Shown here in pieces: positions 7,780 to 25,845 of a stretch of 27,327 nt of DNA; within the stretch, counting starts at the first letter, position 1, and the number at the start of each line of letters is the position of its first letter. The position numbers were made by a program, and so were the translations under genes. The notes beneath the pieces were generated by a model. It searched no databases. It saw nothing but the letters and a program-made list of their open reading frames with translations, and had not been told where the DNA came from. This DNA is from a virus. The DNA lies in IMG/VR virus record IMGVR_UViG_3300032313_000630, positions 1 to 27,327 of that record. One strand, 5' to 3'.

Positions 7780-8595
7780 TTATTTGGGCCATAAGATATT
7801 TAATTTAATTTCATGTATTACTTTATCAAGGTTATCCCACATCGGTACATGCCCTGAATCGGGCCATGAGAGCCATTTTGCGCCCTCTGGAAGCAGTGAC
7901 CTATCCTGATACTTGGGCCTGGTAAAAGACGTGTCTCTCCTGCCAAATATGACAGTAATAGGAATGGTACTATCTATATGTTTATTAAATCCATCAGACA
8001 GGATATTAGCTTGAACTTCAAAGTTATTGATCTTTTTTGATTTATACCAAGAGTCACACGCTATAGAAAAAGATTTTATTGCATCTATGGCTGACCTTGT
8101 TTCTACCTTTTTATAATCAGCAACAGCAGATGAAAAGGCTATCTTTTTTAATTTATCTATTCTTGGCACTATATTTGCAACCAATGGTAGCAACATGTGC
8201 ATTAGTTTTAATACTGGCATTGGCGGGTATTTATATGTATTTTTATGTTTCCATAGGCCAGCAGGTGCTATAGCAGTAAAAGATAATAGTCTATCTGGAT
8301 AAGCACTTGCTATTTCAAGTCCGACCCAACCACCTAATGAATGTCCTACCAAATGAAACTCTTTTACACCTAAACTATTAATCCCTTCTATTACAACTCT
8401 TGCCATATCTTCTGGGGTTAAAGGATCCCATTCGTTAAATGGTGTGTCTCCGTGTCCAGGAAAATCAAATAGAATACATTGTTTACTGTGCTGTATTTCT
8501 TTTACAATTGGCTTCCATACAGATGAACTAGACCCCATTCCATGAAGAAATACGACTGGTGTTCCTTGTCCGTATACTTTACTCCGTAGCTTCAT
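7780..8595 (-). CDS. Alpha/beta hydrolase (MhpC-like), 271 aa
   Basis: All hallmarks of the fold are present: oxyanion loop FLHGMGSSSSVW (17-28), nucleophile elbow GHSLGG with Ser86, acid in FGRRD (Asp221) and PDSGHVP with His249. Length is normal for a soluble esterase/hydrolase. There is no signal peptide, so it acts in the cytoplasm. The substrate is unknown; the acyl-handling neighbours (KAS III, SGNH) make an ester or thioester plausible. Its start lies inside a small Cys protein gene (8579-8722). Confidence 0.85.
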   Translation of the reverse strand: MKLRSKVYGQGTPVVFLHGMGSSSSVWKPIVKEIQHSKQCILFDFPGHGDTPFNEWDPLTPEDMARVVIEGINSLGVKEFHLVGHSLGGWVGLEIASAYPDRLLSFTAIAPAGLWKHKNTYKYPPMPVLKLMHMLLPLVANIVPRIDKLKKIAFSSAVADYKKVETRSAIDAIKSFSIACDSWYKSKKINNFEVQANILSDGFNKHIDSTIPITVIFGRRDTSFTRPKYQDRSLLPEGAKWLSWPDSGHVPMWDNLDKVIHEIKLNILWPK

Positions 8596-8722: not shown

Positions 8723-8808
8723 ATTATTTCATGCCCTTCTACAAAATCAATAGCATCGTCTATGCTAAACGATGGCTCTTTAGTGCAACTTCCTTCATTT
8801 CTTGGCAT
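8719..8808 (-). CDS. Micro-protein, 29 aa
   Basis: The product is MPRNEGSCTKEPSFSIDD followed by AIDFVEGHEII. It starts inside the 3' end of the SGNH gene and its TGA overlaps the next ATG. The unbroken chain of overlaps supports translation, but the frame is short and could be chance. Confidence 0.4.
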   Translation of the reverse strand: MPRNEGSCTKEPSFSIDDAIDFVEGHEII

Positions 8809-9796
8809 CTTTATCCCAGCCCTTATCTTTAAAAACTTTTAAAAAATTATTTGAAATTATCTGGTGATACCCTGTTCCAAGATGCCCATCTGATTTTTCT
8901 AAAGTATATGATGGATTTTCTGCAATTAAATTAACTACATCAGATCTATTGAACCGATCAACAAAGCTGTGTTTAAAATTATTTTTAACTTCATTTAAAG
9001 TAAAATTATCATTAGTGTCTAATAGAGTCCATAAAAACTTTATTTTCTTTTCTTTACATAGTTCTTCAAATAGCTTAACTGCAAGACAAAAATCTATCAA
9101 GTCTGATCTTACTTTTGAAACCGAATATGTATTTTTATGCCAAATTCCAGAGCCAGTTAATCTATATCTACCCGATAAGGTTTCTCCTTTATCTCTTTGT
9201 GGCATTAACATGTAATATCCAGATTTAAAGTTTATTTCTTCTAAATTATTTTCTGTGCTTAAATCTTCTTTTTCAATCCAGCTTTGTTTACGCAATAATG
9301 AAGGAAATGCAATCATTATGTAATCTGGTTTTGCATGTGTGTTCCAGTACTGCATGCATAAGTTTATTATGTCCTGGTATCCCTTTCCAGGAAATCCAAT
9401 ATTAAAGTATCCCGAGGATCCAATAGAGCCTGACAAATCAAGGTAAGTTTTGTACGCCCATGAGTCTTCTAGCTCCCCTCCCTCACCAAATGTTTCTGAG
9501 CATCCAGCAAATAAAATGTGTGGCTGATCATGCATTTTTTTAAATTCATCAGATCTAAATCCAAAAGAGTTTAGTTTTGCGTGATAGGAAGCGTTTAATT
9601 CTTTTCCCTTGCTAAAAGCTGTACTTTTTTGCATTGAATCAATATTTTCAAATCCAGGCCTTAACAGAGATGCAAACATATAACCAAATGGCTTAATTGT
9701 TCGGCTTTCTAAAAAATTAGACTGCTTTTTTAATGCATCATTGGAGTTTTTATTTTTTAATAAATGAAAAATTTTTCTGATTTCTTTTTTCTCCAA
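8795..9796 (-). CDS. SGNH/GDSL-type hydrolase, 333 aa
   Basis: After about 75 variable residues the segment LNSFGFRSDEF leads into HILFAGCSETFGEG, block I with nucleophile Ser100. GFPGKGYQD (134-142) fits the block II/III oxyanion region. SDGHLGTGYHQ (302-312) supplies the catalytic Asp and His. Such proteins are esterases or acyltransferases on glycans or lipids. No signal peptide, so it probably acts in the cytoplasm. The likely start is a TTG at 9796 preceded by weak purines; a 26-codon frame beginning TAATG at 9837 overlaps it and may couple translation. A degenerate paralogue lies at 25114-25845. Confidence 0.75.
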   Translation of the reverse strand: MEKKEIRKIFHLLKNKNSNDALKKQSNFLESRTIKPFGYMFASLLRPGFENIDSMQKSTAFSKGKELNASYHAKLNSFGFRSDEFKKMHDQPHILFAGCSETFGEGGELEDSWAYKTYLDLSGSIGSSGYFNIGFPGKGYQDIINLCMQYWNTHAKPDYIMIAFPSLLRKQSWIEKEDLSTENNLEEINFKSGYYMLMPQRDKGETLSGRYRLTGSGIWHKNTYSVSKVRSDLIDFCLAVKLFEELCKEKKIKFLWTLLDTNDNFTLNEVKNNFKHSFVDRFNRSDVVNLIAENPSYTLEKSDGHLGTGYHQIISNNFLKVFKDKGWDKDAKK

Positions 9797-9836
9797 ATCT
9801 TTATCTTTAAAACAATAATTTTTATTTTTTTAATCA

Positions 9837-11261
9837 TTATCTTATTATACCAAACTTATACTCAGATTCCCAGTTAACTATATCTAGTTCATCATTAAGC
9901 AAAGGCTGACCTTTTATATTTAAGCTTGTATTCAGAAGCACTGGCACTCCAGTTTGCAGATAAAATTTATTTAAAACACGCCATAAACCTCGGTGTTGCT
10001 CTTTATTTACAGTTTGAACCCTTGATGTTCCATCTGCATGTACAACGGAAGGTATTTTATCTGGCTGTAAGCATTTAACTGTGTACTGCATATAAGGAGA
10101 TGTAAAATTCATATCAAACCATTTAGAGGCACACTCTTCCATTATTACTGGAGCAAACGGCCTAAACAACTCTCTTTGTTTAATTAGGTTTACCTTATCT
10201 TTTATGTTTGGGTCTCTCGGATCTGCAAGTATACTCCTGTTTCCTAAAGCTCTTGGTCCATACTCAGCTCTTCCATTTGCTACTGCGACAATACCATCCT
10301 TTAATATACCATCAACAATTTTTTTTACTGGATACTCTCCTCCAAGATCATATCCTAAATAAGGAGACTTCCATTCAATATGGTTTCCGTATAAGGCTGC
10401 TGCTGCACCTAAAGAACTTCCAGCATCACCTGGATTTGGCATAATCCAAATATCATCAAATATTTTCCAAAGCAATGTGTTGGCTGATGAATTAAGAGCG
10501 CATCCGCCCATAAAAACTAAATTTGTTTTACCAGTAATTCTTTTTGCCATACGCATAAAATCATTAAGCCTTTGCTCGTATACCATTTGAACAGCCGCCG
10601 CAATATCAAATTTATCTTGATCGTTTATGGGTTCATTCCAGTCTTTAATTCCTTTATGAAAGTTATATCTTTGTTCAGAGTATGCTGGAAAATAAGAGTC
10701 TACCTTTTTATAATATCTTGTCCAGTCTCCGTATGCTGCCATTCCCATCATAATGTATTCTTCTTGGTTTGGCATTAGGCCTATTAGATTTGTAAAAGCT
10801 GAATAAAATAAACCAAAACTTACTGGGTAATTTTGTTTATACTTAAGTTTAATTTTATTATTATTTCCTACCCAGATAGTAGAAGTATTGTACTCTCCGA
10901 TAGCATCAAGAACTACAATTACAGCATCATTAAAATGACTGGTGTAGTATCCAGCAGCAGCATGTGATTGATGGTGGCTAAAATGTTTAACTGGGATACC
11001 CTTGATATTAAATCTAGGCTTCCACTCTCCAGCACCACCGTGAATAAAAAGTCTGGATGCTTTTAAAATTGGTTTTTCATAGTAGGCTATTTTTTGGGGG
11101 GTTCCATAAGATAGTGCGTCTTGGATTAATGATTCATTTAAGTACCAGTCATTTTTTTTCTTGCTATATCTTTCAGAATGACCAGCAAAGAGTATTTTGC
11201 CGTCATTTATAAGTGATACTGATGCGTCATGAGATGTCTCGTTTATACCTAAAATAATCAT
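9837..11261 (-). CDS. NodU/CmcH-type O-carbamoyltransferase, 474 aa
   Basis: The enzyme transfers a carbamoyl group from carbamoyl phosphate, through an ATP-dependent adenylate, to a hydroxyl. The N-terminal ASKHA-like domain begins ILGINETSHDASVSLI and carries HSERYSKKK, HHQSHAAAGYY (metal ligands near 96-100) and FMGGCALN. The C-terminal domain carries GRAEYGPRALGNRSILADPR, RPFAPV, HADGTSRVQTV and NTSLNIKGQPL. I chose ATG 11261, where homology begins, not the frame end at 11318. At 474 residues it is shorter than typical 550-600-residue members but keeps the motifs. Known acceptors include Nod factors, antibiotics and, in some phages, modified pyrimidines; here the acceptor is unknown. Confidence 0.9.
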   Translation of the reverse strand: MIILGINETSHDASVSLINDGKILFAGHSERYSKKKNDWYLNESLIQDALSYGTPQKIAYYEKPILKASRLFIHGGAGEWKPRFNIKGIPVKHFSHHQSHAAAGYYTSHFNDAVIVVLDAIGEYNTSTIWVGNNNKIKLKYKQNYPVSFGLFYSAFTNLIGLMPNQEEYIMMGMAAYGDWTRYYKKVDSYFPAYSEQRYNFHKGIKDWNEPINDQDKFDIAAAVQMVYEQRLNDFMRMAKRITGKTNLVFMGGCALNSSANTLLWKIFDDIWIMPNPGDAGSSLGAAAALYGNHIEWKSPYLGYDLGGEYPVKKIVDGILKDGIVAVANGRAEYGPRALGNRSILADPRDPNIKDKVNLIKQRELFRPFAPVIMEECASKWFDMNFTSPYMQYTVKCLQPDKIPSVVHADGTSRVQTVNKEQHRGLWRVLNKFYLQTGVPVLLNTSLNIKGQPLLNDELDIVNWESEYKFGIIR

Positions 11262-11275
11262 AAATATCCAATCTA

Positions 11276-11305
11276 TTGTCTTTAGTATATCAAATATTAT
11301 ATAAT
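11276..11305 (+). promoter_or_regulatory. Leaderless promoter for the 11312 oxygenase
   Basis: TTGTCT (11276-11281), 18 bases, perfect TATAAT (11300-11305), then six bases to the ATG at 11312. It lies in the 50-base gap between the divergent carbamoyltransferase and oxygenase genes. Confidence 0.65.
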
Positions 11306-11311
11306 AAGTAT

Positions 11312-11920
11312 ATGACAATTTTAACAGAGCAATTTGAGCCAGTAATTATAGATGATTGTCTGGATTCAGCACATATACTATCTGCATATAGAACTATGGC
11401 AATGGCACCGCATGTTTTAAATACAAAAAGCGGTAAAAGAGATTTAGTGCAGCCTGATCCAGAATTTGGATATATATCTTATAATAAAAATCCAGATGCT
11501 TTTGTACGTGATAGAATTATGGAGTTGGTTGCATCAAAAACAGATATACCTTTTAATGTTCCAGATTTTCATTTTGCTAAATACGCAAAGTCAAGTGGAT
11601 ACAGGCCACAACTTTACCCTCATTACGATGTACATTTAAAAAAGCCACATTTGACATTAAGCATTCAGATTGAATCTACATTCCCTTGGACTATGTTTGT
11701 TGACGGTAAGGCTTACACTTTAAAAGACAATCAGGGTCTTTTGTTTTCTGGTACCCATCAAATACATTGGAGAAGTAACACTGAATTTGGTGAGTATGAC
11801 TACTCTGATGTACTTTTATCTCAGTTTAGCGTAGCTTACGATGAGAATTTAAGTGATGAACATTATGCACATATGGAATCAAAAAAGTCTAAATACTGGA
11901 ATATCTGGGAAAATAATTAA
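11312..11920 (+). CDS. 2-oxoglutarate/Fe(II) dioxygenase, IHWR subfamily, 202 aa
   Basis: The double-stranded beta-helix core carries YPHYDVH (Fe ligands His104 and Asp106) and SGTHQIHWR (distal His152 and Arg154, the likely 2OG contact). The strand LTLSIQIES and FVDGKAYTLKDNQGLLFSGT lie between. It couples 2OG decarboxylation to hydroxylation; the substrate is unknown. ATG 11312 is chosen because TATAAT ends six bases before it; an upstream ATG at 11276 would lack a signal. It runs opposite to its neighbours and its stop overlaps the convergent membrane-protein stop by four bases. Paralogues of the same type: 15205-15915, 17835-18461, 23827-24414. Confidence 0.85.
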   Translation: MTILTEQFEPVIIDDCLDSAHILSAYRTMAMAPHVLNTKSGKRDLVQPDPEFGYISYNKNPDAFVRDRIMELVASKTDIPFNVPDFHFAKYAKSSGYRPQLYPHYDVHLKKPHLTLSIQIESTFPWTMFVDGKAYTLKDNQGLLFSGTHQIHWRSNTEFGEYDYSDVLLSQFSVAYDENLSDEHYAHMESKKSKYWNIWENN

Positions 11921-12069
11921 AAAGATTTCGCTTTATTTCTATTTTCTTTATCCATAGATTTAAGCCTTTTTCTTTTTCTTTTAAATTTTTCTATTTTATC
12001 AATTAACAAACTTAAAAGCAATAAAGAAAATAAATAAGTACCAATTATTATATTTTTTATTTTATTCAC
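11917..12069 (-). CDS. Small single-pass membrane protein, 50 aa
   Basis: The frame starts with GTG at 12069, inside the last codons of the catalase gene. The first half is a hydrophobic helix (IIIGTYLFSLLLLSLLI) and the second half is extremely basic (KIEKFKRKRKRLKSM), so an N-out/C-in topology is expected. Close coupling to catalase suggests joint expression. Function is unknown; a membrane tether or small regulatory peptide is possible. The start codon and overlap are the weak points; the hydrophobic/basic pattern is the strong one. Confidence 0.55.
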   Translation of the reverse strand: MNKIKNIIIGTYLFSLLLLSLLIDKIEKFKRKRKRLKSMDKENRNKAKSF

Positions 12070-13342
12070 GATTAAAACCTAGAGACTCTAAAGCTAAAAG
12101 AACTCCATCTGCATAAGCCTGGTCTATCATAGAAAATAAATTTAATTGGTTCATAACTGTATCTTTTCTTACACGTATTAAAGTATTTGCAAGATTAGAG
12201 TAAAGTCTATTTTTTTCTTCATCAGAAAAAGATTGCCATAAGGCCCTTGGTTGATTAAAATGATCATTTGTTTCTTTATTTTCGCATAAATAAAATGTTT
12301 CTGTTGACAAAAAGTTTTTAATCTCAGATTTAACATGTTTAGATAGTTTGTTTATATCAAAACCAACTCTTGTTTTTTGCACAAGGGGGTAAGCGGTTGC
12401 ACGATCAAGTAGCGCCCCATCATGAGACATACCTATACCTTCTGGCATGTTAGAAGGTGACCAAGCCATTCTTTCAATTGTTACAAGTTGATGGTATTGT
12501 GAAATATTTAACTCCATAACCCCAACTTCTATTAATGGGAACTGGCCGTGAGGCCATACATTGTTCATTCTAAATGGATTAAATTCTAATTTTGTGCATT
12601 CATCTTCTGGCATAATTTGTACATAAAGTTTCCATTTTGGAAAATTTCTTTTAGCTATTGCCTCGTACATGTCATAGGTATGATAATTTGGCTCTATCTG
12701 AGAAATTTCTGCAGCTTCTTTATCTGTAAGAAATTCATGCCCTTGCATAGTTTTAAAATGAAATTTTACCCAAAATCTTTCATCGCTTTCATTAATAAAA
12801 GAAAATGTATTACATCCGTAGCCATTCATATTACGCCATGTGCGTGGGATTCCTCTGTCAGACCAAACCATTGTTATCTTATGTAGAGACTCTGGAGTTT
12901 TGCTAAAAAGAGACCATTTTTCATTAGCCTCGTATAATCCAGAAAAATAATTTCTTTGAGATCCGTTATGCAAATGTAAAACATTTTCTCTATCTACCAC
13001 ATACTGTATGGGTACATTAAGTCCGACTATGTCAAATGGCCCATCTTCACCTTTAAACCTTACACTAAATCCTCTAGTGTCTCTAAACAGTTCTGATGTG
13101 CCATGTTGGGAGGTGGTGCTAGATAATCTAACAACCACCTCGGTTTCTTTTCCTAACTCTGAAAAGATTTTAGCCTTGGTGTATTTTGTTATATCATTGG
13201 TGACTTTAAATATACCGCCAAATCCAGTTCCATTTCCATGAAAAATTCTTTCTCTGGTAGTATCTTTATAAAAGTCATTCATTCTAGATGCATTTACACT
13301 AACAAACATATTACTTGTTAGTAAATCATTAGTATTTTCCAA
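12062..13342 (-). CDS. kat: Heme catalase, 426 aa
   Basis: Converts H2O2 to water and oxygen. The active-site region RERIFHGNGTGFGGIF holds the distal His35. VGLNVPIQYVVD supplies the conserved Asn109. MPEGIGMSHDGALLDRATAY holds Arg314 and the heme-ligand Tyr318 in the R-x-x-x-Y arrangement. WVKFHFKTMQG is also typical. The usual small-subunit catalase is about 480 residues; this one is shortened at both ends. GYGCNTFSF replaces the usual GYGSHTF, losing that His. There is a TATAAT 13 bases before the ATG, with GGGAAG as ribosome-binding site. Catalase is unusual cargo for a phage. It may protect against a host or phage-induced oxidative burst or supply O2 to the nearby oxygenases (inference). 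Confidence 0.85.
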   Translation of the reverse strand: MENTNDLLTSNMFVSVNASRMNDFYKDTTRERIFHGNGTGFGGIFKVTNDITKYTKAKIFSELGKETEVVVRLSSTTSQHGTSELFRDTRGFSVRFKGEDGPFDIVGLNVPIQYVVDRENVLHLHNGSQRNYFSGLYEANEKWSLFSKTPESLHKITMVWSDRGIPRTWRNMNGYGCNTFSFINESDERFWVKFHFKTMQGHEFLTDKEAAEISQIEPNYHTYDMYEAIAKRNFPKWKLYVQIMPEDECTKLEFNPFRMNNVWPHGQFPLIEVGVMELNISQYHQLVTIERMAWSPSNMPEGIGMSHDGALLDRATAYPLVQKTRVGFDINKLSKHVKSEIKNFLSTETFYLCENKETNDHFNQPRALWQSFSDEEKNRLYSNLANTLIRVRKDTVMNQLNLFSMIDQAYADGVLLALESLGFNRE

Positions 13343-14040: not shown

Positions 14041-15072
14041 TTAGGGCAGTTTTATAACCTGTGTGGCATAAGACAGCCCAGCCCCAAATCCTCCAATTAG
14101 CGCAATATCCCCACTTTTTGCCTGGCCGCTTATAATTAAAGCATCTAGGGCTAATGGAACGGATCCAGAAGACGTGTTGCCAGTATGCTCTATGTCATGA
14201 GATACAGTAACATTTTCTGGGATACCAAGTCTTCTTGTTAACGCTTGAGTAATCCTGTCATTTGCTTGATGGGGAATAAATACATCTATATCGTCAATTG
14301 TAATTCCAGTTTTTTCTAATACAGAAGACATAGCATCAGCAACAGTAGTTACTGCAAACATAAAAACCTTTTCGCCTTCCATCTTCATTGCTGGCCATTT
14401 AGGTATAGGGTTACCATTTTCATCTTTATCTAGCATTTGCGGCCTCATGTCTATCCATGAAGTATCGAGTATTAAAGCTCCTCTATTTTCAATATCCCCA
14501 CCTAAAATTGCTGGTCCAATTCCGTTTTCTTCGCTGCTACATTTTTGAACTATAACTGCGCCAGCGCCGTCTGCAAATATAAACTCAACATCTGGGCTAT
14601 TGTGATTGTTATTTACCTGCAGTGTCTCAGCACCAATCACAACAATGTTATCTGTAGTTCCATTTTTAATCAAACTAGATGCAATTTCTAAAGAATAACA
14701 GAATCCAGCACATGCTGAATTTAAATCCATAGCTGCTACATTCTTGCCACCTAAGATCAAAGCAATTTCACTTGCACCGCTTGGGGTTGCGTGGGGGTAT
14801 GTAGTTGTTGAAAATATAATCATTCCTATTTTTTCTATAGGAATATTTGCTTTTGACATAGCTTTTTTTGCTGCTTCGGAAGCCATGAAGGCAAGAGTTT
14901 CTCCGCCATCAACATCCGCAATCCCTCTAGACTTTATACCTGTTCTTTTTTGAATCCACTCATCTTCAAATCCCATTGCTTGGTATCTTGTATTGTCTAC
15001 ATTATTTTTAGGTCGATAAGATCCAGTAGAAACAATTCTTGCACCTACTTCAGAGCCTGTTTTAATTTTCAT
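14041..15072 (-). CDS. fabH: 3-oxoacyl-ACP synthase III (KAS III/FabH-like), 343 aa
   Basis: Thiolase-fold condensing enzyme. The catalytic triad is complete: Cys121 in LNSACAGF, His268 in IPHQAN and Asn299 in HTGNTSSGS. KRTGIKSR, FADGAGAV and IGGFGAGLS are further family marks. FabH starts fatty-acid synthesis by condensing acetyl-CoA with malonyl-ACP; related enzymes start polyketides or transfer acyl groups to hydroxyls. Length is normal and no residue is missing. No acyl-carrier protein or other FAS gene is seen nearby, so it must use host ACP or have an acyl-transfer role. Ribosome-binding site AAGAGA. Confidence 0.9.
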   Translation of the reverse strand: MKIKTGSEVGARIVSTGSYRPKNNVDNTRYQAMGFEDEWIQKRTGIKSRGIADVDGGETLAFMASEAAKKAMSKANIPIEKIGMIIFSTTTYPHATPSGASEIALILGGKNVAAMDLNSACAGFCYSLEIASSLIKNGTTDNIVVIGAETLQVNNNHNSPDVEFIFADGAGAVIVQKCSSEENGIGPAILGGDIENRGALILDTSWIDMRPQMLDKDENGNPIPKWPAMKMEGEKVFMFAVTTVADAMSSVLEKTGITIDDIDVFIPHQANDRITQALTRRLGIPENVTVSHDIEHTGNTSSGSVPLALDALIISGQAKSGDIALIGGFGAGLSYATQVIKLP

Positions 15073-15204: not shown

Positions 15205-15915
15205 CTACCAAACCTTAAGTATTCTTTGATAGCACTTATGCATATATGGAGGGTATATTGAATCGGCATACTCTTTATATGCATCATAATATGGTTTTAC
15301 ATCTGAGTCGTGATCATCTGCAGAACCAATTTCCATGTTTTTGTTGTTAAATGTAACAAACATTAAATCTAAAAATTGCCCATCTTCAAACACTTGAGGT
15401 TTTCTCCAATGAATTTTTTTTGTTACGTCTAGTATAAGAATATCATTGTCTACCATGTTGTACTCACCATGTTCAGCAACAACCAAAGGCCACTGGACAT
15501 TTGAATTTACCTGAATATCAAAAAGAAATTGAACCCTTGAAGGTTTGTCGTAGTGAGGTATAAGCTGTACAAATCCGTATTGCTTATCATACCTTATGAA
15601 GGAAATTATTCCTAGTTCTAGGTCGGGATTTATTTTTTGGGCCTCTTCGTTTAGCTTTCTTATTATTCCATATGGTATATCTTTTTGTTTAAGGTTGATT
15701 CGTATTCTGCCTAAATTTCTGTCTAAATAAAAATCATTAAAGTCTTTTTTAAAAACACTAGAGTCAACTTTTTTTGGATCTACTTTGTCTTTTGTATCAA
15801 TTAAAAAATTAATCTTATCTACAAACGCTTTTAGTTCATCTTGATCAAAAAAATTATGTCTTAGTTCGACACCATTCAATTTACTTTTTCCCAAATCTTT
15901 CCCAGAGTCTTTCAT
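15205..15915 (-). CDS. 2-oxoglutarate/Fe(II) dioxygenase, IHWR subfamily, 236 aa
   Basis: Same subfamily as 11312-11920. QLIPHYDKPSR holds Fe ligands His121 and Asp123. FLFDIQVNSNVQWPLVV is the core strand pair. DVTKKIHWRKP holds His169 and Arg171. The SGT of its relatives is DVT here. The N-terminal 100 residues are longer and more charged. I chose ATG 15915; the in-frame TTG at 15939 has no better signal. It overlaps the DUF2061-like gene by 35 bases, so the two are coupled. Its substrate is unknown. Confidence 0.8.
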   Translation of the reverse strand: MKDSGKDLGKSKLNGVELRHNFFDQDELKAFVDKINFLIDTKDKVDPKKVDSSVFKKDFNDFYLDRNLGRIRINLKQKDIPYGIIRKLNEEAQKINPDLELGIISFIRYDKQYGFVQLIPHYDKPSRVQFLFDIQVNSNVQWPLVVAEHGEYNMVDNDILILDVTKKIHWRKPQVFEDGQFLDLMFVTFNNKNMEIGSADDHDSDVKPYYDAYKEYADSIYPPYMHKCYQRILKVW

Positions 15916-16075
15916 GAATATAATACCCCAGAGACTCAACGGCTATATAAAATATGGCCCCAAGGCTTGCATACTCCCATTCGCCAGTAAATAAATAAAT
16001 TATCCCAGCCAAAACAACCACATGGAATGTTTCCCAGCTAATTGTTTTAATTATACTTTTTTTTGGTGTGCTCAT
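15881..16075 (-). CDS. DUF2061-like two-helix membrane protein, 64 aa
   Basis: KSIIKTISWETFHVVVLAG then IYLFTGEWEYASLGAIFYI and a C-terminal YYIHERLWERFGKK reproduce the DUF2061 pattern: a short basic N-terminus, two membrane helices and a YxHERxW end. The family role is unknown. TAGAAT (16082-16087) ends six bases before the ATG, so a leaderless mRNA is predicted. The 3' end overlaps the oxygenase gene. Confidence 0.8.
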   Translation of the reverse strand: MSTPKKSIIKTISWETFHVVVLAGIIYLFTGEWEYASLGAIFYIAVESLGYYIHERLWERFGKK

Positions 16076-17834: not shown

Positions 17835-18461
17835 ATGATAGATTACCAGCCATACAACGAGCTTAAAGCTAAACACAAAATTTCTAACGAAGACTTTAAC
17901 GTTTGCGTTGCGGACGACGTCCTAACAAAAGATCTAATAGACTACGTATACAACAACCTTAAAGAAGATAGCGTAACAATGCAAGACTGGGGTGGCAGAA
18001 AATCTTACTCCATGCCCTTAAATCCATTGCTTGCACGTAGGATCAATGAGGTTGCAAAGGCAACCACTGGGCTTGATATATACTTAAAAGAATTTTTCTT
18101 TTTAAGATATACCCTAGACTATGGCTATGAGCCTAAACTATTTCCTCACTGGGACAGCAGAGAGTCACAAAGAATAACTTTTGACATACAGCTTAATGCA
18201 GATGAAGAATGGGGCGTAGTTGTTGAAGGAGAAAACTACAGGCTTAAGTTTAATCAAGGTCTTTTATTCTCTGGAACACAACAGATTCACTGGAGAGAAA
18301 ATATTAAGCTTTCTCCAGGAACTGTAGTGGATATGCTTATATGTAACATGGCTTACACAAAAGACATTCCTTTAGACGAAGGACAAGCAGAAATACTTGA
18401 AGAGCGTAGCCTATTCCTTATGGAAGAAACTGGAATTGGAAACAAAGCTATAGAAGCTTAG
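17835..18461 (+). CDS. 2-oxoglutarate/Fe(II) dioxygenase, IHWR subfamily, 208 aa
   Basis: KLFPHWDSRES supplies Fe ligands His105 and Asp107; FDIQLNADEEWGVVVEGENY is the core; LLFSGTQQIHWREN supplies His152 and Arg154. It is closest in layout to the 11312 copy, sharing NQGLLFSGT. The frame extends upstream to 17562, but the ATG at 17835 has a TATAAT six bases ahead, as a leaderless start. It runs against the surrounding genes and its stop overlaps the convergent methylase stop by four bases. Its substrate is unknown. Confidence 0.85.
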   Translation: MIDYQPYNELKAKHKISNEDFNVCVADDVLTKDLIDYVYNNLKEDSVTMQDWGGRKSYSMPLNPLLARRINEVAKATTGLDIYLKEFFFLRYTLDYGYEPKLFPHWDSRESQRITFDIQLNADEEWGVVVEGENYRLKFNQGLLFSGTQQIHWRENIKLSPGTVVDMLICNMAYTKDIPLDEGQAEILEERSLFLMEETGIGNKAIEA

Positions 18462-19917: not shown

Positions 19918-20123
19918 TCTTTATCTTTTAGTTCTTCCGCTGCTGCATTAAATCTATTCATAAATTCTTGTATCACAAATAGAGTAGTTTCATGTGCATT
20001 CTTGGACATTGCGCTAAATGCTTGCTGATTCTTTTCGTCATCGGGCATTGCTGAGACCCATTTTTTATATAGGCCCTCAGCAACCTCGCCAATGATTTCA
20101 TCCATTACTGTAAGATCAGCCAT
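19914..20123 (-). CDS. Acidic helical hypothetical protein, 69 aa
   Basis: MADLTVMDEIIGEVAEGLYK starts an all-helical, acidic protein with no Cys. No motif is recognised. It overlaps the protease gene upstream by eight bases and the oxygenase-like gene downstream by four. It may be an adaptor or inhibitor for a neighbour, but nothing in the sequence shows that. Confidence 0.65.
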   Translation of the reverse strand: MADLTVMDEIIGEVAEGLYKKWVSAMPDDEKNQQAFSAMSKNAHETTLFVIQEFMNRFNAAAEELKDKE

Positions 20124-21288
20124 TTAGTTTTGCCAGCCATGATGCTTTAGTCGCAGCAAGTTTATCCTGTGCAGCTTTTAATTCTGCTTGATACTGTGCT
20201 TCTGCTGCTGCAATGGCAGCATTTACTTGTGATTGCAATAAAGCTTTTGCTGCAAGTAGGTCTGCTGCTGCCTTATCTGCAATTACCTTGTCTGCAGCAG
20301 CTTTTGCTGCAGCAATTTCTGTTGCTGATGGACCAGATGGTGCAGTAGGCACAGATGTTCCTGACATAGCAGCGCTTAAATCAATAAGCTTTTTAATTGT
20401 GCCTTGTCTACCTGAAGTACTCTTAGATGTTGATTTAAGTAAATCAATAAGTGACTGCATTGAAAGGTTTGGCTTTTTTGATTTAAGTGCAATAAATGAA
20501 CCTGCTGCTGATTGAATTGCTGCTGATGATCCAGAAATATTTTTAACTAGGCCTCCTGGCCCAGCAACAGTAAAGAATCCTGGGGCAAAAAAATCAAGCT
20601 TTGCTTCATCGTAGTTGCTATTTGCTGCAATTTCGCCAATTCTATCCACGTATCCTACTGAAACAGATGCATCAATGCATGCTGGCCAGTCAAGTCGCTT
20701 ATAATCTCGTCCATTACCAGAAGGGAAAAATACTGGAATCCCATCAGATGCAAGGCTTTCCACGGAAGACTGTGTTGCTGGAGTCTTTGGGCAATAGTCG
20801 GTTCCCGCAACACCTAGGTTGTGGTGTCCTTGTGCCATAGTCACGGCCTGAATGTTATATCTTGAAGCATTTGCTTTGACCCAGTTTAATGCATTAAATA
20901 CTGTGGATTCAAATGCAATTTGTCTTCCGCCAGTCGCAGTGTTTCCAATAATTTTAATAAAGATTACGTTCATGTTTGGGTTTGATTCCATTAGAACAGA
21001 TGTCATCTGTGTTCCATGATCAAATCCATTAATTTTAATTAAATCTACTGGCATTGATGCTGCGCCAGGGCCTTCCATAAAATTAGATCCGTTTGGACAT
21101 GTTGTCCAGTCTAGGATACATACCTCTTGAACAATTCTTCCTTTGAATGCAGGAAGAGAAGTATCGATTGCTGTATCTAAAATAGCTACGGTTGGTAGCT
21201 GAGCTGTCTTGTTTTCCAGGGCCGCATGGGCCGTTGTTGGGACAATGAGTGAAAGTGCTACTAGAGCAGTTATTAGTTTTTTATTCAT
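20116..21288 (-). CDS. Secreted subtilisin-like (S8) serine protease, 390 aa
   Basis: Signal peptide MNKKLITALVALSLIVPTTA with an AHA-A site. The catalytic triad is complete: Asp38 in VAILDTAID, His91 in FDHGTQMTS and Ser255 in SGSSAAIQ (GSSAA where the norm is GTSMA); Asn192 in PSGNGRD forms the oxyanion hole. The domain ends near 300, then a Pro/Ser linker and an Ala-rich coiled coil (AAAKAAADKVIADKAAADLL onwards), similar in style to the end of the 16142 product. There is no obvious propeptide. It should act outside the cell, on host surface or competitor proteins. The promoter is a perfect consensus ending six bases before the ATG. Confidence 0.85.
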   Translation of the reverse strand: MNKKLITALVALSLIVPTTAHAALENKTAQLPTVAILDTAIDTSLPAFKGRIVQEVCILDWTTCPNGSNFMEGPGAASMPVDLIKINGFDHGTQMTSVLMESNPNMNVIFIKIIGNTATGGRQIAFESTVFNALNWVKANASRYNIQAVTMAQGHHNLGVAGTDYCPKTPATQSSVESLASDGIPVFFPSGNGRDYKRLDWPACIDASVSVGYVDRIGEIAANSNYDEAKLDFFAPGFFTVAGPGGLVKNISGSSAAIQSAAGSFIALKSKKPNLSMQSLIDLLKSTSKSTSGRQGTIKKLIDLSAAMSGTSVPTAPSGPSATEIAAAKAAADKVIADKAAADLLAAKALLQSQVNAAIAAAEAQYQAELKAAQDKLAATKASWLAKLNG

Positions 21289-23613: not shown

Positions 23614-23830
23614 ATTTTTTATTCAACTTCCATACACCATCATTGTTTATGGACACTTTATGCGCCATACCCCAAGCATTATTTCTAAACATACCGCCAG
23701 GTGATGCGTATCCAGATGAATTTTTATTCCAGATTACAATATCGTAATTGTCCCAGAATGATTTTGAAGTTTTGCCCTCAAACCTTTTCATAAAAATTTC
23801 TACACCAGCTTCAGTTAGTACCAACATCAC
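23594..23830 (-). CDS. Conserved hypothetical protein, 78 aa
   Basis: LVLTEAGVEIFMKRFEGKTS is followed by DNYDIVIWNKNSSGYASPGG and KVSINNDGVWKLNKKYVKYF. A small beta-rich basic protein, without Cys. It has no recognised motif. It is coupled by ATGA to the 23827 oxygenase and overlaps the WhiB gene by 20 bases. Confidence 0.7.
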   Translation of the reverse strand: MMLVLTEAGVEIFMKRFEGKTSKSFWDNYDIVIWNKNSSGYASPGGMFRNNAWGMAHKVSINNDGVWKLNKKYVKYFK

Positions 23831-24414
23831 ACATACTCATTCAAATATTTAGTTGATAGGAGTTTCATATCAACTCTGTGTTTATCCGATATCTCTTCCG
23901 CCTGAGTGTCTTCAAGATGACAAAATATCATGTCTAGATATTGTTCATCCTTAAGCTCTATTTTTGGCCTCCAGTGTATCTGGTGTGTTCCAGAAAATAC
24001 TAGAGCCTCATTGTTTTTTAAAGTATATGAAATCCCATTAACATATACTGGCCAAACCAAGTTAGAATTCATTTGTATATCTACAGTTATCATAGGCTTT
24101 TTAAATACCTTGTCATAATGTGGTGGAAGCCACGCAGGGTTCCCGCTCTTTGTAGTATACCTAACGAATTGAATTGCTGCTATCTTTAGATCTATATTAT
24201 ACTCTGACTTAAGCATATTTTCAATAGATATATATATATCTTCTGCACCAGATTCTCTTGAATCAAACTCGTCAATAAAGAATGCAAGCTGACCATAACT
24301 ATTTGGAGCCTTTATTTTATCTTCTGGACAAGAGTTGACCAACTCGTATACTCTATCAATTTGATCTTGATTTAATACGTTTTGAACAACTCTGTTGTCT
24401 AGATTATAATCCAC
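23827..24414 (-). CDS. 2-oxoglutarate/Fe(II) dioxygenase, IHWR subfamily, 195 aa
   Basis: WLPPHYDKVFKKP supplies Fe ligands His99 and Asp101; VDIQMNSNLVWPVYVNGISY is the core; VFSGTHQIHWRPK supplies His147 and Arg149. The GTG start at 24414 shares a base with the TAG of the upstream oxygenase (TAGTG), so a prolyl-hydroxylase-like and an IHWR-type enzyme are made in tandem. Substrate unknown. Confidence 0.85.
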   Translation of the reverse strand: MDYNLDNRVVQNVLNQDQIDRVYELVNSCPEDKIKAPNSYGQLAFFIDEFDSRESGAEDIYISIENMLKSEYNIDLKIAAIQFVRYTTKSGNPAWLPPHYDKVFKKPMITVDIQMNSNLVWPVYVNGISYTLKNNEALVFSGTHQIHWRPKIELKDEQYLDMIFCHLEDTQAEEISDKHRVDMKLLSTKYLNEYV

Positions 24415-25121
24415 TAATAAGACCTTAGATGGGATGTGTCTTCGCCTTCATTTACCCATAATCCTTTTGAGTCTTCTGGGTTATAGTTCATTTGTCTTTC
24501 TGGCGCACCATTATCAAATGTCCACCATATTGGCATTGTGTATCTTATTCCATCTTCTACTTCAGTAACAATATGATTGTAGTAGTTGTTGGCTGGGAAC
24601 ATTACTAGGTCTCCAGCCTCTGGCTTAATATCTAAATCGTAATCTGGGAACTGAATGTGACCACCAGTGTAGTCATCATTTGGATAAATAAGCGCAGTAA
24701 TATTTAGCTTATAATAATTTGATTTCATTAAAGGATCACCATTTGGATACTGGCAATCTGAATGCAACCCAGAACCCATAGTTGGACTCCATTTTATAAA
24801 GTGCAGTTCATTCCATGGCTTTTCAAATAACTTAATGTCATATTTTTCTACAAAGTTTTTTCTTGCCACATCAAACATTTTTTTCTCATAAAGCTTTATT
24901 AAATCTGCTACTTCTGGGTTTTCATCTTTAACCTGAATATGTCTTAGGCTTTTCCCACCAGAAAACTCTTTATCATCCCTATGTGTGTTTAAATAATCTA
25001 CAATCTTAACCCTGTGATCTTCATCAAGAAATTTTTCTACAACGATAATGTTGTCTTCTGATTTTCCTATTTTATCAAAATCTGCTTGGTAGTATGACCA
25101 AACCTTCATATCATCATTCAT
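24414..25121 (-). CDS. Prolyl-4-hydroxylase-like 2OG/Fe(II) oxygenase, 235 aa
   Basis: GSGLHSDCQYP gives Fe ligands His120 and Asp122, YTGGHIQFPDYD is the typical GG strand, AGDLVMFPANNYYNHIVTEV holds His183, and DGIRYTMPIWW holds Arg193 for 2OG. This is the standard P4H arrangement, unlike the IHWR copies. ATG 25121 is chosen for AGGAG six bases upstream; the frame extends to 25193. Family members hydroxylate proline, other residues or small molecules; here the target is unknown. Its start overlaps the stop of the 25114 gene by eight bases. Confidence 0.85.
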   Translation of the reverse strand: MNDDMKVWSYYQADFDKIGKSEDNIIVVEKFLDEDHRVKIVDYLNTHRDDKEFSGGKSLRHIQVKDENPEVADLIKLYEKKMFDVARKNFVEKYDIKLFEKPWNELHFIKWSPTMGSGLHSDCQYPNGDPLMKSNYYKLNITALIYPNDDYTGGHIQFPDYDLDIKPEAGDLVMFPANNYYNHIVTEVEDGIRYTMPIWWTFDNGAPERQMNYNPEDSKGLWVNEGEDTSHLRSY

Positions 25122-25845
25122 TATTACTCCTAATTGTGTTAACGAAATGGCTATATATCTGTTCTTGGCTATATAGGTCTTGCTGTGTTTCAAAAAAATA
25201 TCTAAACGATTTATCCTTAAGTATTTCTGATGTTTCTTTATCCCATGTAGTCCAAAATAAATTTATTCCAGCTGCATCGCAATACGACTCAAGAATTCTA
25301 ACTGATCTTATATAGCTTAAAGCAAGAAGCTGCAAGGAAACATTATTTGGCTCTGCCATAATATTATGCTCTACACCGTCTTCTGATTTTAACTGCCTAT
25401 ACATCTTTGGCTTATAAACTTTTCCTTCTGGCCAGTATCCATATTGTCTAATAATTTCTGGCATTAAAACAAAAAGTTTTGATGGTGCCCCGTATAAATC
25501 AACATATTTAATTATGTTTGAAACTATCTTCTGTGGGTCTGCTCCAGGGTAAGCTAAACTTCTAAATGTTCCAACAGTACCAAGATAATATTTGTATAGG
25601 TTGTACGACCAAGCATCTTCTATTTTGCTATCTATAGGAAGTGTGTACTCACATCCAGCAAATAATATATGCTCTTCTTTTGGTATCTTGTAAAATTCGT
25701 CGCATCGAACTCCATGAGAATTTAATGAGTAATCATTTTCTTCCATCCACGGAGTAGGAAATTCAACCATAGGTTCTATTTTATTAGAAAGCCATGTTGT
25801 GTATTCTGAATTAAGATCAAGAAGTTGATCTTTGTAAGACAGCAT
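25114..25845 (-). CDS. Degenerate SGNH-like protein, 243 aa
   Basis: The N-terminal half is clearly related to the 8795 SGNH hydrolase: LNSHGVRCDEF, then HILFAGCEYTLPI with EDAWSYNLYKYYLG. The nucleophile position is Glu66 (GCEYT versus GCSET in the active paralogue). The C-terminal DGH segment is missing: the protein stops 90 residues earlier. It is thus probably inactive as hydrolase and may bind a substrate or a partner. A good promoter (25872-25901) and AGGAG-type site lie upstream. It heads an SGNH-like/P4H/2OG operon. Confidence 0.75.
   Translation of the reverse strand: MLSYKDQLLDLNSEYTTWLSNKIEPMVEFPTPWMEENDYSLNSHGVRCDEFYKIPKEEHILFAGCEYTLPIDSKIEDAWSYNLYKYYLGTVGTFRSLAYPGADPQKIVSNIIKYVDLYGAPSKLFVLMPEIIRQYGYWPEGKVYKPKMYRQLKSEDGVEHNIMAEPNNVSLQLLALSYIRSVRILESYCDAAGINLFWTTWDKETSEILKDKSFRYFFETQQDLYSQEQIYSHFVNTIRSNNE

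Follow-up and report, generated by a model that had tools for sequence, protein, structure and literature searches.

Many freshwater and marine phages share a pair of adjoining genes, encoding a predicted O-carbamoyltransferase (CT) of the NodU/TobZ type and an enzyme of the SGNH fold, and the recurrence of this pair suggests a putative common chemical decoration of a target other than phage DNA. In the 27,327-nucleotide stretch of a virus record that was analysed (hereafter the window), both genes lie on the minus strand, with CT upstream and a gap of 40 bp between them (Table 1). NodU-type CTs in phage genomes have so far been listed as stray auxiliary genes, and a conserved CT-SGNH unit raises the testable question of what is carbamoylated and which host defence or receptor is answered by it. 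In the open-access literature searched, no report of CT-SGNH pairing in phages was found, nor anything relevant on CT and sulfotransferase genes as phage auxiliary genes.

Table 1. Genes of the window that bear on the proposed decoration module, with predicted products (2OG, 2-oxoglutarate-type Fe(II) oxygenase family).
Product	Positions	Strand	Basis
Short sulfotransferase-like protein, 171 aa	6135-6650	+	PF00685, E 8.9e-5, slightly above the cut-off; homologues in a 115 kb relative
Alpha/beta hydrolase	7780-8595	-	
SGNH-fold hydrolase/acyltransferase, 333 aa; predicted catalytic Ser100, Asp303, His305	8795-9796	-	Family HMM, alignment, AlphaFold2, Foldseek, VIA-align
CT, NodU/TobZ-type O-carbamoyltransferase, 474 aa	9837-11261	-	PF02543 and PF16861, phrog_1601, phmmer, profile
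2OG-Fe(II) oxygenase-like, divergent from CT	11312-11920	+	No Pfam match; HxD...HxR
Haem catalase	12062-13342	-	PF00199, E 8e-98
FabH-type KAS III	14041-15072	-	NCBIfam, 1.3e-91
2OG-Fe(II) oxygenase-like	15205-15918	-	HxD...HxR alignment
2OG-Fe(II) oxygenase-like	17835-18461	+	HxD...HxR alignment
Subtilase (S8), apparent signal peptide	20116-21288	-	
2OG-Fe(II) oxygenase-like	23827-24414	-	HxD...HxR alignment
2OG-Fe(II) oxygenase, PiuC/prolyl-hydroxylase type	24414-25121	-	PF13640, E 3.1e-10
Second SGNH paralogue, probably inactive	25114-25845	-	Glu replaces the catalytic Ser; C-terminal DxxH motif absent

The CT product contains both domains of its family, Carbam_trans_N (PF02543, E = 2.5e-35) and Carbam_trans_C (PF16861, E = 3.6e-54), matches the Nol-like family phrog_1601 at 5.1e-104, and retrieves the PDB chains of NovN, GdmN and TobZ with phmmer (profile E values of about 1e-91 to 2e-108). 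Its motifs are located at residues 96 (HHQSHA), 118 (LDAIGE), 278 (GDAGSS), 335 (GPRALGNRS), 367 (RPFAP) and 442 (LLNTS), and the core residues of the active-site motifs (HHxxHA, D, GDxG, GPRALGxRS, RPFAP and NTS) are invariant in nine diverse members of the family. Judged by its domains and residues, the window CT is an intact NodU/TobZ-type O-carbamoyltransferase, which agrees with the sequence-only reading of it as a NodU/CmcH-type enzyme. NovN, GdmN and TobZ are antibiotic-tailoring enzymes of about 570-700 aa; the two-domain family and active-site motifs are common to them and the window CT, but the latter has 474 aa, is phage-borne and is paired with an SGNH gene. A helper role in nucleotide metabolism, by which CT would feed pyrimidine synthesis as annotated for the CT of cyanophage S-SZBM1 (PMC9146016), is extremely improbable, given the N and C domains of the NodU/TobZ family and the O-carbamoyltransferase homologues in the PDB, which distinguish CT from an aspartate carbamoyltransferase.

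The partner gene is recognizable chiefly as a member of a family. With the SGNH protein of the window as query, searches of Pfam, PHROG, NCBIfam and (as a single sequence) the PDB gave zero matches, tblastn against 50,697 phage records returned nothing, and viral contigs yielded no relatives; SGNH alignments are too diverse for pattern scans, and relatives were gathered via CT. The protein possesses a block I motif (GCSxTFG, with Ser100) and a C-terminal motif SDGHLG (with Asp303 and His305), and the family alignment has the catalytic serine in 70 of 71 rows and the histidine in 68 of 71. Block III (GxND, with the oxyanion-hole Asn) was not seen by inspection, and the family keeps P165 and R169 there. 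The family profile matches solved GDSL/lysophospholipase-L1 esterases (E = 1.9e-4), and an AlphaFold2 model with a core pLDDT above 90 overlays TesA, PAF-AH and GDSL esterases in Foldseek and VIA-align, with VIA-align Z scores of 13-16 to GDSL, TesA and carbohydrate esterases. Motifs, profile and predicted structure thus confirm the product as an SGNH-fold enzyme with Ser-Asp-His motifs. The TTG annotated as its start (9796) is open to doubt: an ATG overlapping the stop codon of CT (9796-9839, minus strand) opens a short ORF in a frame other than that of SGNH; either the TTG is the start or there is an indel in an A-rich run.

A CT search of viral contigs gave at least 598 related loci, of which the best 80 (81-86% identity) constitute the freshwater set, dereplicated at 97% CT nucleotide identity to 55; no phage record close to the window at the DNA level was found. 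According to the SGNH-family HMM, an SGNH gene directly adjoins CT in 65 of the 80 loci (upstream, downstream or on both sides), and in 14 of the other 15 the gene immediately upstream of CT is 2OG-Fe(II) oxygenase-like, the last being cut off at a contig end. SGNH is adjacent to 45 of the 55 distinct CTs, versus 8.5 expected, and SGNH or 2OG to 54 of the 55, versus 16.5 expected (each 0 of 20000 permutations, in a test that assumes independent loci beyond dereplication). The CT-SGNH tandem in freshwater phages is therefore more than local chance, and the sequence-only description of an SGNH enzyme in tandem with CT holds for the fold and for the arrangement, and more strongly than it was put. 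Counted alone, 2OG oxygenases are beside CT in 20 loci versus 13 expected, an excess that is small because these genes are so abundant in these genomes.

CT is among the most conserved genes in these phages, being 85% identical between relatives of 115 kb and 117 kb whose DNA polymerases are 53%, portals 50% and helicases 38% identical. The median amino-acid identity of 56 distinct CTs is 86%, and their fourfold sites, at 50% identity versus 36% for random sequence, are close to saturation. On a quick CT tree with many weak branches, the partner arrangement changed at least 21 times; the SGNH partner is diverse, far more variable than CT, has switched sides repeatedly and is often present in several copies per locus. 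CT thus resembles a fixed tool whose partners can be exchanged, and such divergence of SGNH would be odd if both enzymes recognised one constant substrate. Variability and copy number of this kind are expected of an enzyme that faces variable host surfaces, and one marine SGNH has a weak tail-fibre match, as if SGNH were a receptor- or capsule-deacylating enzyme that is merely beside CT and functions separately. This explanation is nevertheless unlikely, as SGNH, on one side or the other, has stayed adjacent to CT in a bacterium and two phage lineages, with repeated rearrangement, and the SGNH proteins are single-domain, with neither a tail-fibre part nor an export signal evident by inspection.

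The pairing extends beyond the freshwater phages. Among annotated phage records, the nearest CT (44% identical) belongs to a virus from a marine single-cell sample and has SGNH genes upstream; among the 80 relatives of this marine CT (63-100% identical), SGNH is adjacent in 60, versus 31 expected (0 of 5000 permutations). These marine loci contain T4-like gp25 and gp6 baseplate genes, but as they represent a single lineage, having such genes nearby does not count as independent support for a target on the virion. Among the families encountered most often no more than 7 kb from CT, CT and SGNH alone are frequent in the two sets alike, freshwater and marine. Six cellular genomes have CTs that are 43-47% identical: in the Geodermatophilus chromosome just 2 bp separate CT from an SGNH gene upstream of it, in Streptomyces hoynatensis an SGNH frame abuts or overlaps the end of CT, and SGNH is within about 2.3 kb of CT in two more. 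Beside other CTs, direct SGNH adjacency was found in only 2 of 80 loci, and thus the pairing, present in Geodermatophilus, marine and freshwater loci, follows this CT subfamily. The Nol/NodU-like CTs of cyanophages and pelagiphages are auxiliary genes of the same family, mostly about 30% identical to the window CT; several are located among sugar, epimerase or methyltransferase genes, unlike the window CT with its SGNH neighbour, and some sit among sugar-nucleotide genes. Six records of this type (five annotated phages and one single-cell virus) have no direct SGNH neighbour of CT, and Mosig alone among them has an SGNH-like gene, about 2 kb away.

Genes for other modifying enzymes recur near the pair. 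Five diverged oxygenase-like proteins align with an invariant HxD...HxR motif, and the family of the PiuC/prolyl-hydroxylase-type oxygenase of the window adjoins CT directly in relatives. Sulfotransferase-like genes are found near CT in freshwater phages and in 59 of the 80 marine loci; a family with weak similarity to glycosyltransferases is present in 78 of the 80 marine loci. About 20 freshwater loci have a glycosyltransferase-like gene of GT-A fold, related to PF11397, and a gene of this fold lies beside 2OG and CT; in the 27 kb window itself, neither a glycosyltransferase nor a nucleotide-sugar gene could be recognised. In 43 of the 80 loci of the freshwater set, an APS-kinase-like/nucleotidyltransferase fusion is encoded no more than 7 kb from CT. 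In two phages that share 53% identity in their polymerases, the fusion (L088:16020-16781 and relatives) is 88% identical, and a gammaproteobacterial MAG contig (L103) apparently has the APS-kinase-like and nucleotidyltransferase genes separate, just upstream of CT.

The sequence-only reading had proposed that the cluster, with KAS III and the alpha/beta hydrolase included, could hydroxylate a target and then cap it, an idea that is partly supported. The conserved CT-SGNH unit, with 2OG oxygenases nearby in freshwater phages and sulfotransferases nearby in marine and freshwater phages, makes hydroxylation followed by capping a reasonable inference; by contrast, not one of the freshwater loci (the best 80 of at least 598) has KAS III, the alpha/beta hydrolase or the catalase, which thus lie outside the conserved module. 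No export signal was evident by inspection in CT or the SGNH protein, from which a cytoplasmically accessible acceptor is expected. Decoration of a glycan or glycoprotein would be in line with the sulfotransferases and glycosyltransferase-like genes, and with the genomic setting of some CTs in other phages. A cytoplasmic, phage-encoded hydroxylate-and-cap module that acts on something other than DNA (a glycan, glycoprotein or peptide, with a sugar of a glycan or glycoprotein as the likeliest acceptor) is accordingly proposed, with about an even chance of being correct. As TobZ does, CT would convert carbamoyl phosphate and ATP to carbamoyl-adenylate; it would then move the carbamoyl group onto the acceptor, at a hydroxyl or, less probably, an amine; the acceptor may be part of the virion or of the surface of the host. 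The neighbouring SGNH enzyme would remove an ester-linked group from the same acceptor or add one to it, the 2OG-Fe(II) oxygenases would create hydroxyls, and the sulfotransferases and glycosyltransferase-like enzymes would cap other hydroxyls. The benefit could be escape from a host defence or an altered host or virion surface; this benefit is inferred, like the acceptor, the SGNH reaction and the order of the steps.

Phage DNA is the least likely of the proposed targets and is disfavoured by gene content, contrary to the precedent of carbamoylated hydroxymethyl pyrimidines cited in the sequence-only reading, which took a hydroxymethylase gene as a pointer to DNA. In the MetaGPA study (PMC8670742), a phage-derived CT, of Pfam families shared with the window CT, carbamoylates 5-hydroxymethylcytosine (5hmC) in vitro, and modified contigs carry CT together with homologues of thymidylate synthase. 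Here, in contrast, a thymidylate-synthase-type hydroxymethylase (PF00303) was found in none of 36 related records, which include five above 110 kb, have no completeness estimates and were searched alongside a control that was positive in 9 of 14 genomes; the window itself is a 27 kb fragment. A C5 methyltransferase (PF00145) was found in none of 17 related records. The hydroxymethyl group could in principle come from 2OG oxygenases, and there are Tet_JBP (PF12851) matches, but these are weak and all below the cut-off, and one of them, on checking, proved to be a general 2OG oxygenase (PF13640). Positions 408, 421 and 423 of TobZ, named in that study for the CT subfamilies, would map to V327, G340 and R342 of the window CT. 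Hypermodification in which CT carbamoylates 5hmC or another hydroxymethyl base, as the MetaGPA enzyme does, would also leave the SGNH partner without explanation and is very unlikely.

Peptides and small molecules deserve more weight as acceptors. In crocagin biosynthesis the 2OG dioxygenase CgnC, the SGNH-fold leader peptidase CgnD and the carbamoyltransferase CgnI cooperate (PMC10070186), and in other crocagin-like clusters a glycosyltransferase replaces CT. The phage loci match this combination of enzyme types, and in VIA-align the SGNH model is matched best by CgnD (8a2n; 206 residues aligned at Z = 16.0 and rmsd 4.0), although its lead is small (next match, 14.7) and CgnD was not found in the PDB by sequence, with SGNH profiles and the Geodermatophilus SGNH as queries. 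A peptide is the substrate of one NodU-like CT that is fused to an S8 peptidase (PMC13174530), and S8 homologues are near CT in about 30 of the 80 loci, but the phage S8 protease bears an apparent signal peptide. The S8 gene is immediately upstream of CT in two loci (L044 and L045). Unlike crocagin clusters, the phage loci have no recognised precursor peptide: no precursor-like conserved small ORF was recognised within 4 kb of CT in 55 loci, by a search that could miss short or fast-changing precursors. A module that builds a modified ribosomal peptide or metabolite acting on the host, as in crocagin, would also be in keeping with the presence of NovN, GdmN and TobZ among the solved CT homologues; on balance it is somewhat unlikely. 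A crocagin-like modification of proteins or peptides, shared by phages that infect abundant bacteria of fresh and marine waters, is quite unlikely; in it, 2OG oxygenases would hydroxylate side chains of virion or host proteins or of ribosomal peptides, CT would carbamoylate them, and SGNH would trim or free the product.

Two groups of relatives (G032, L090-L095; G004, L084-L089) have many 2OG-like genes, with more than 15 calls in a 117 kb phage, and a run of such genes is located among structural genes. One relative rich in prolyl-hydroxylase-like oxygenases encodes a collagen-like protein with 14 Gly-X-Y repeats (L084:15830-16558, PF01391); collagen-like hydroxylation targets were set aside, such a protein having been found in that relative only. 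The sequence TATAATA is found 12 bases before start codons (window positions 11300, 17823 and 21300), as in leaderless transcripts, a weak excess of 5 occurrences versus 2.3 expected. The freshwater phages with CT-SGNH are actinophage-like: the DNA polymerase of one relative is 54% identical to those of Streptomyces phages of about 127 kb, and the window encodes WhiB, a marker for freshwater actinophages (PMC6802176).
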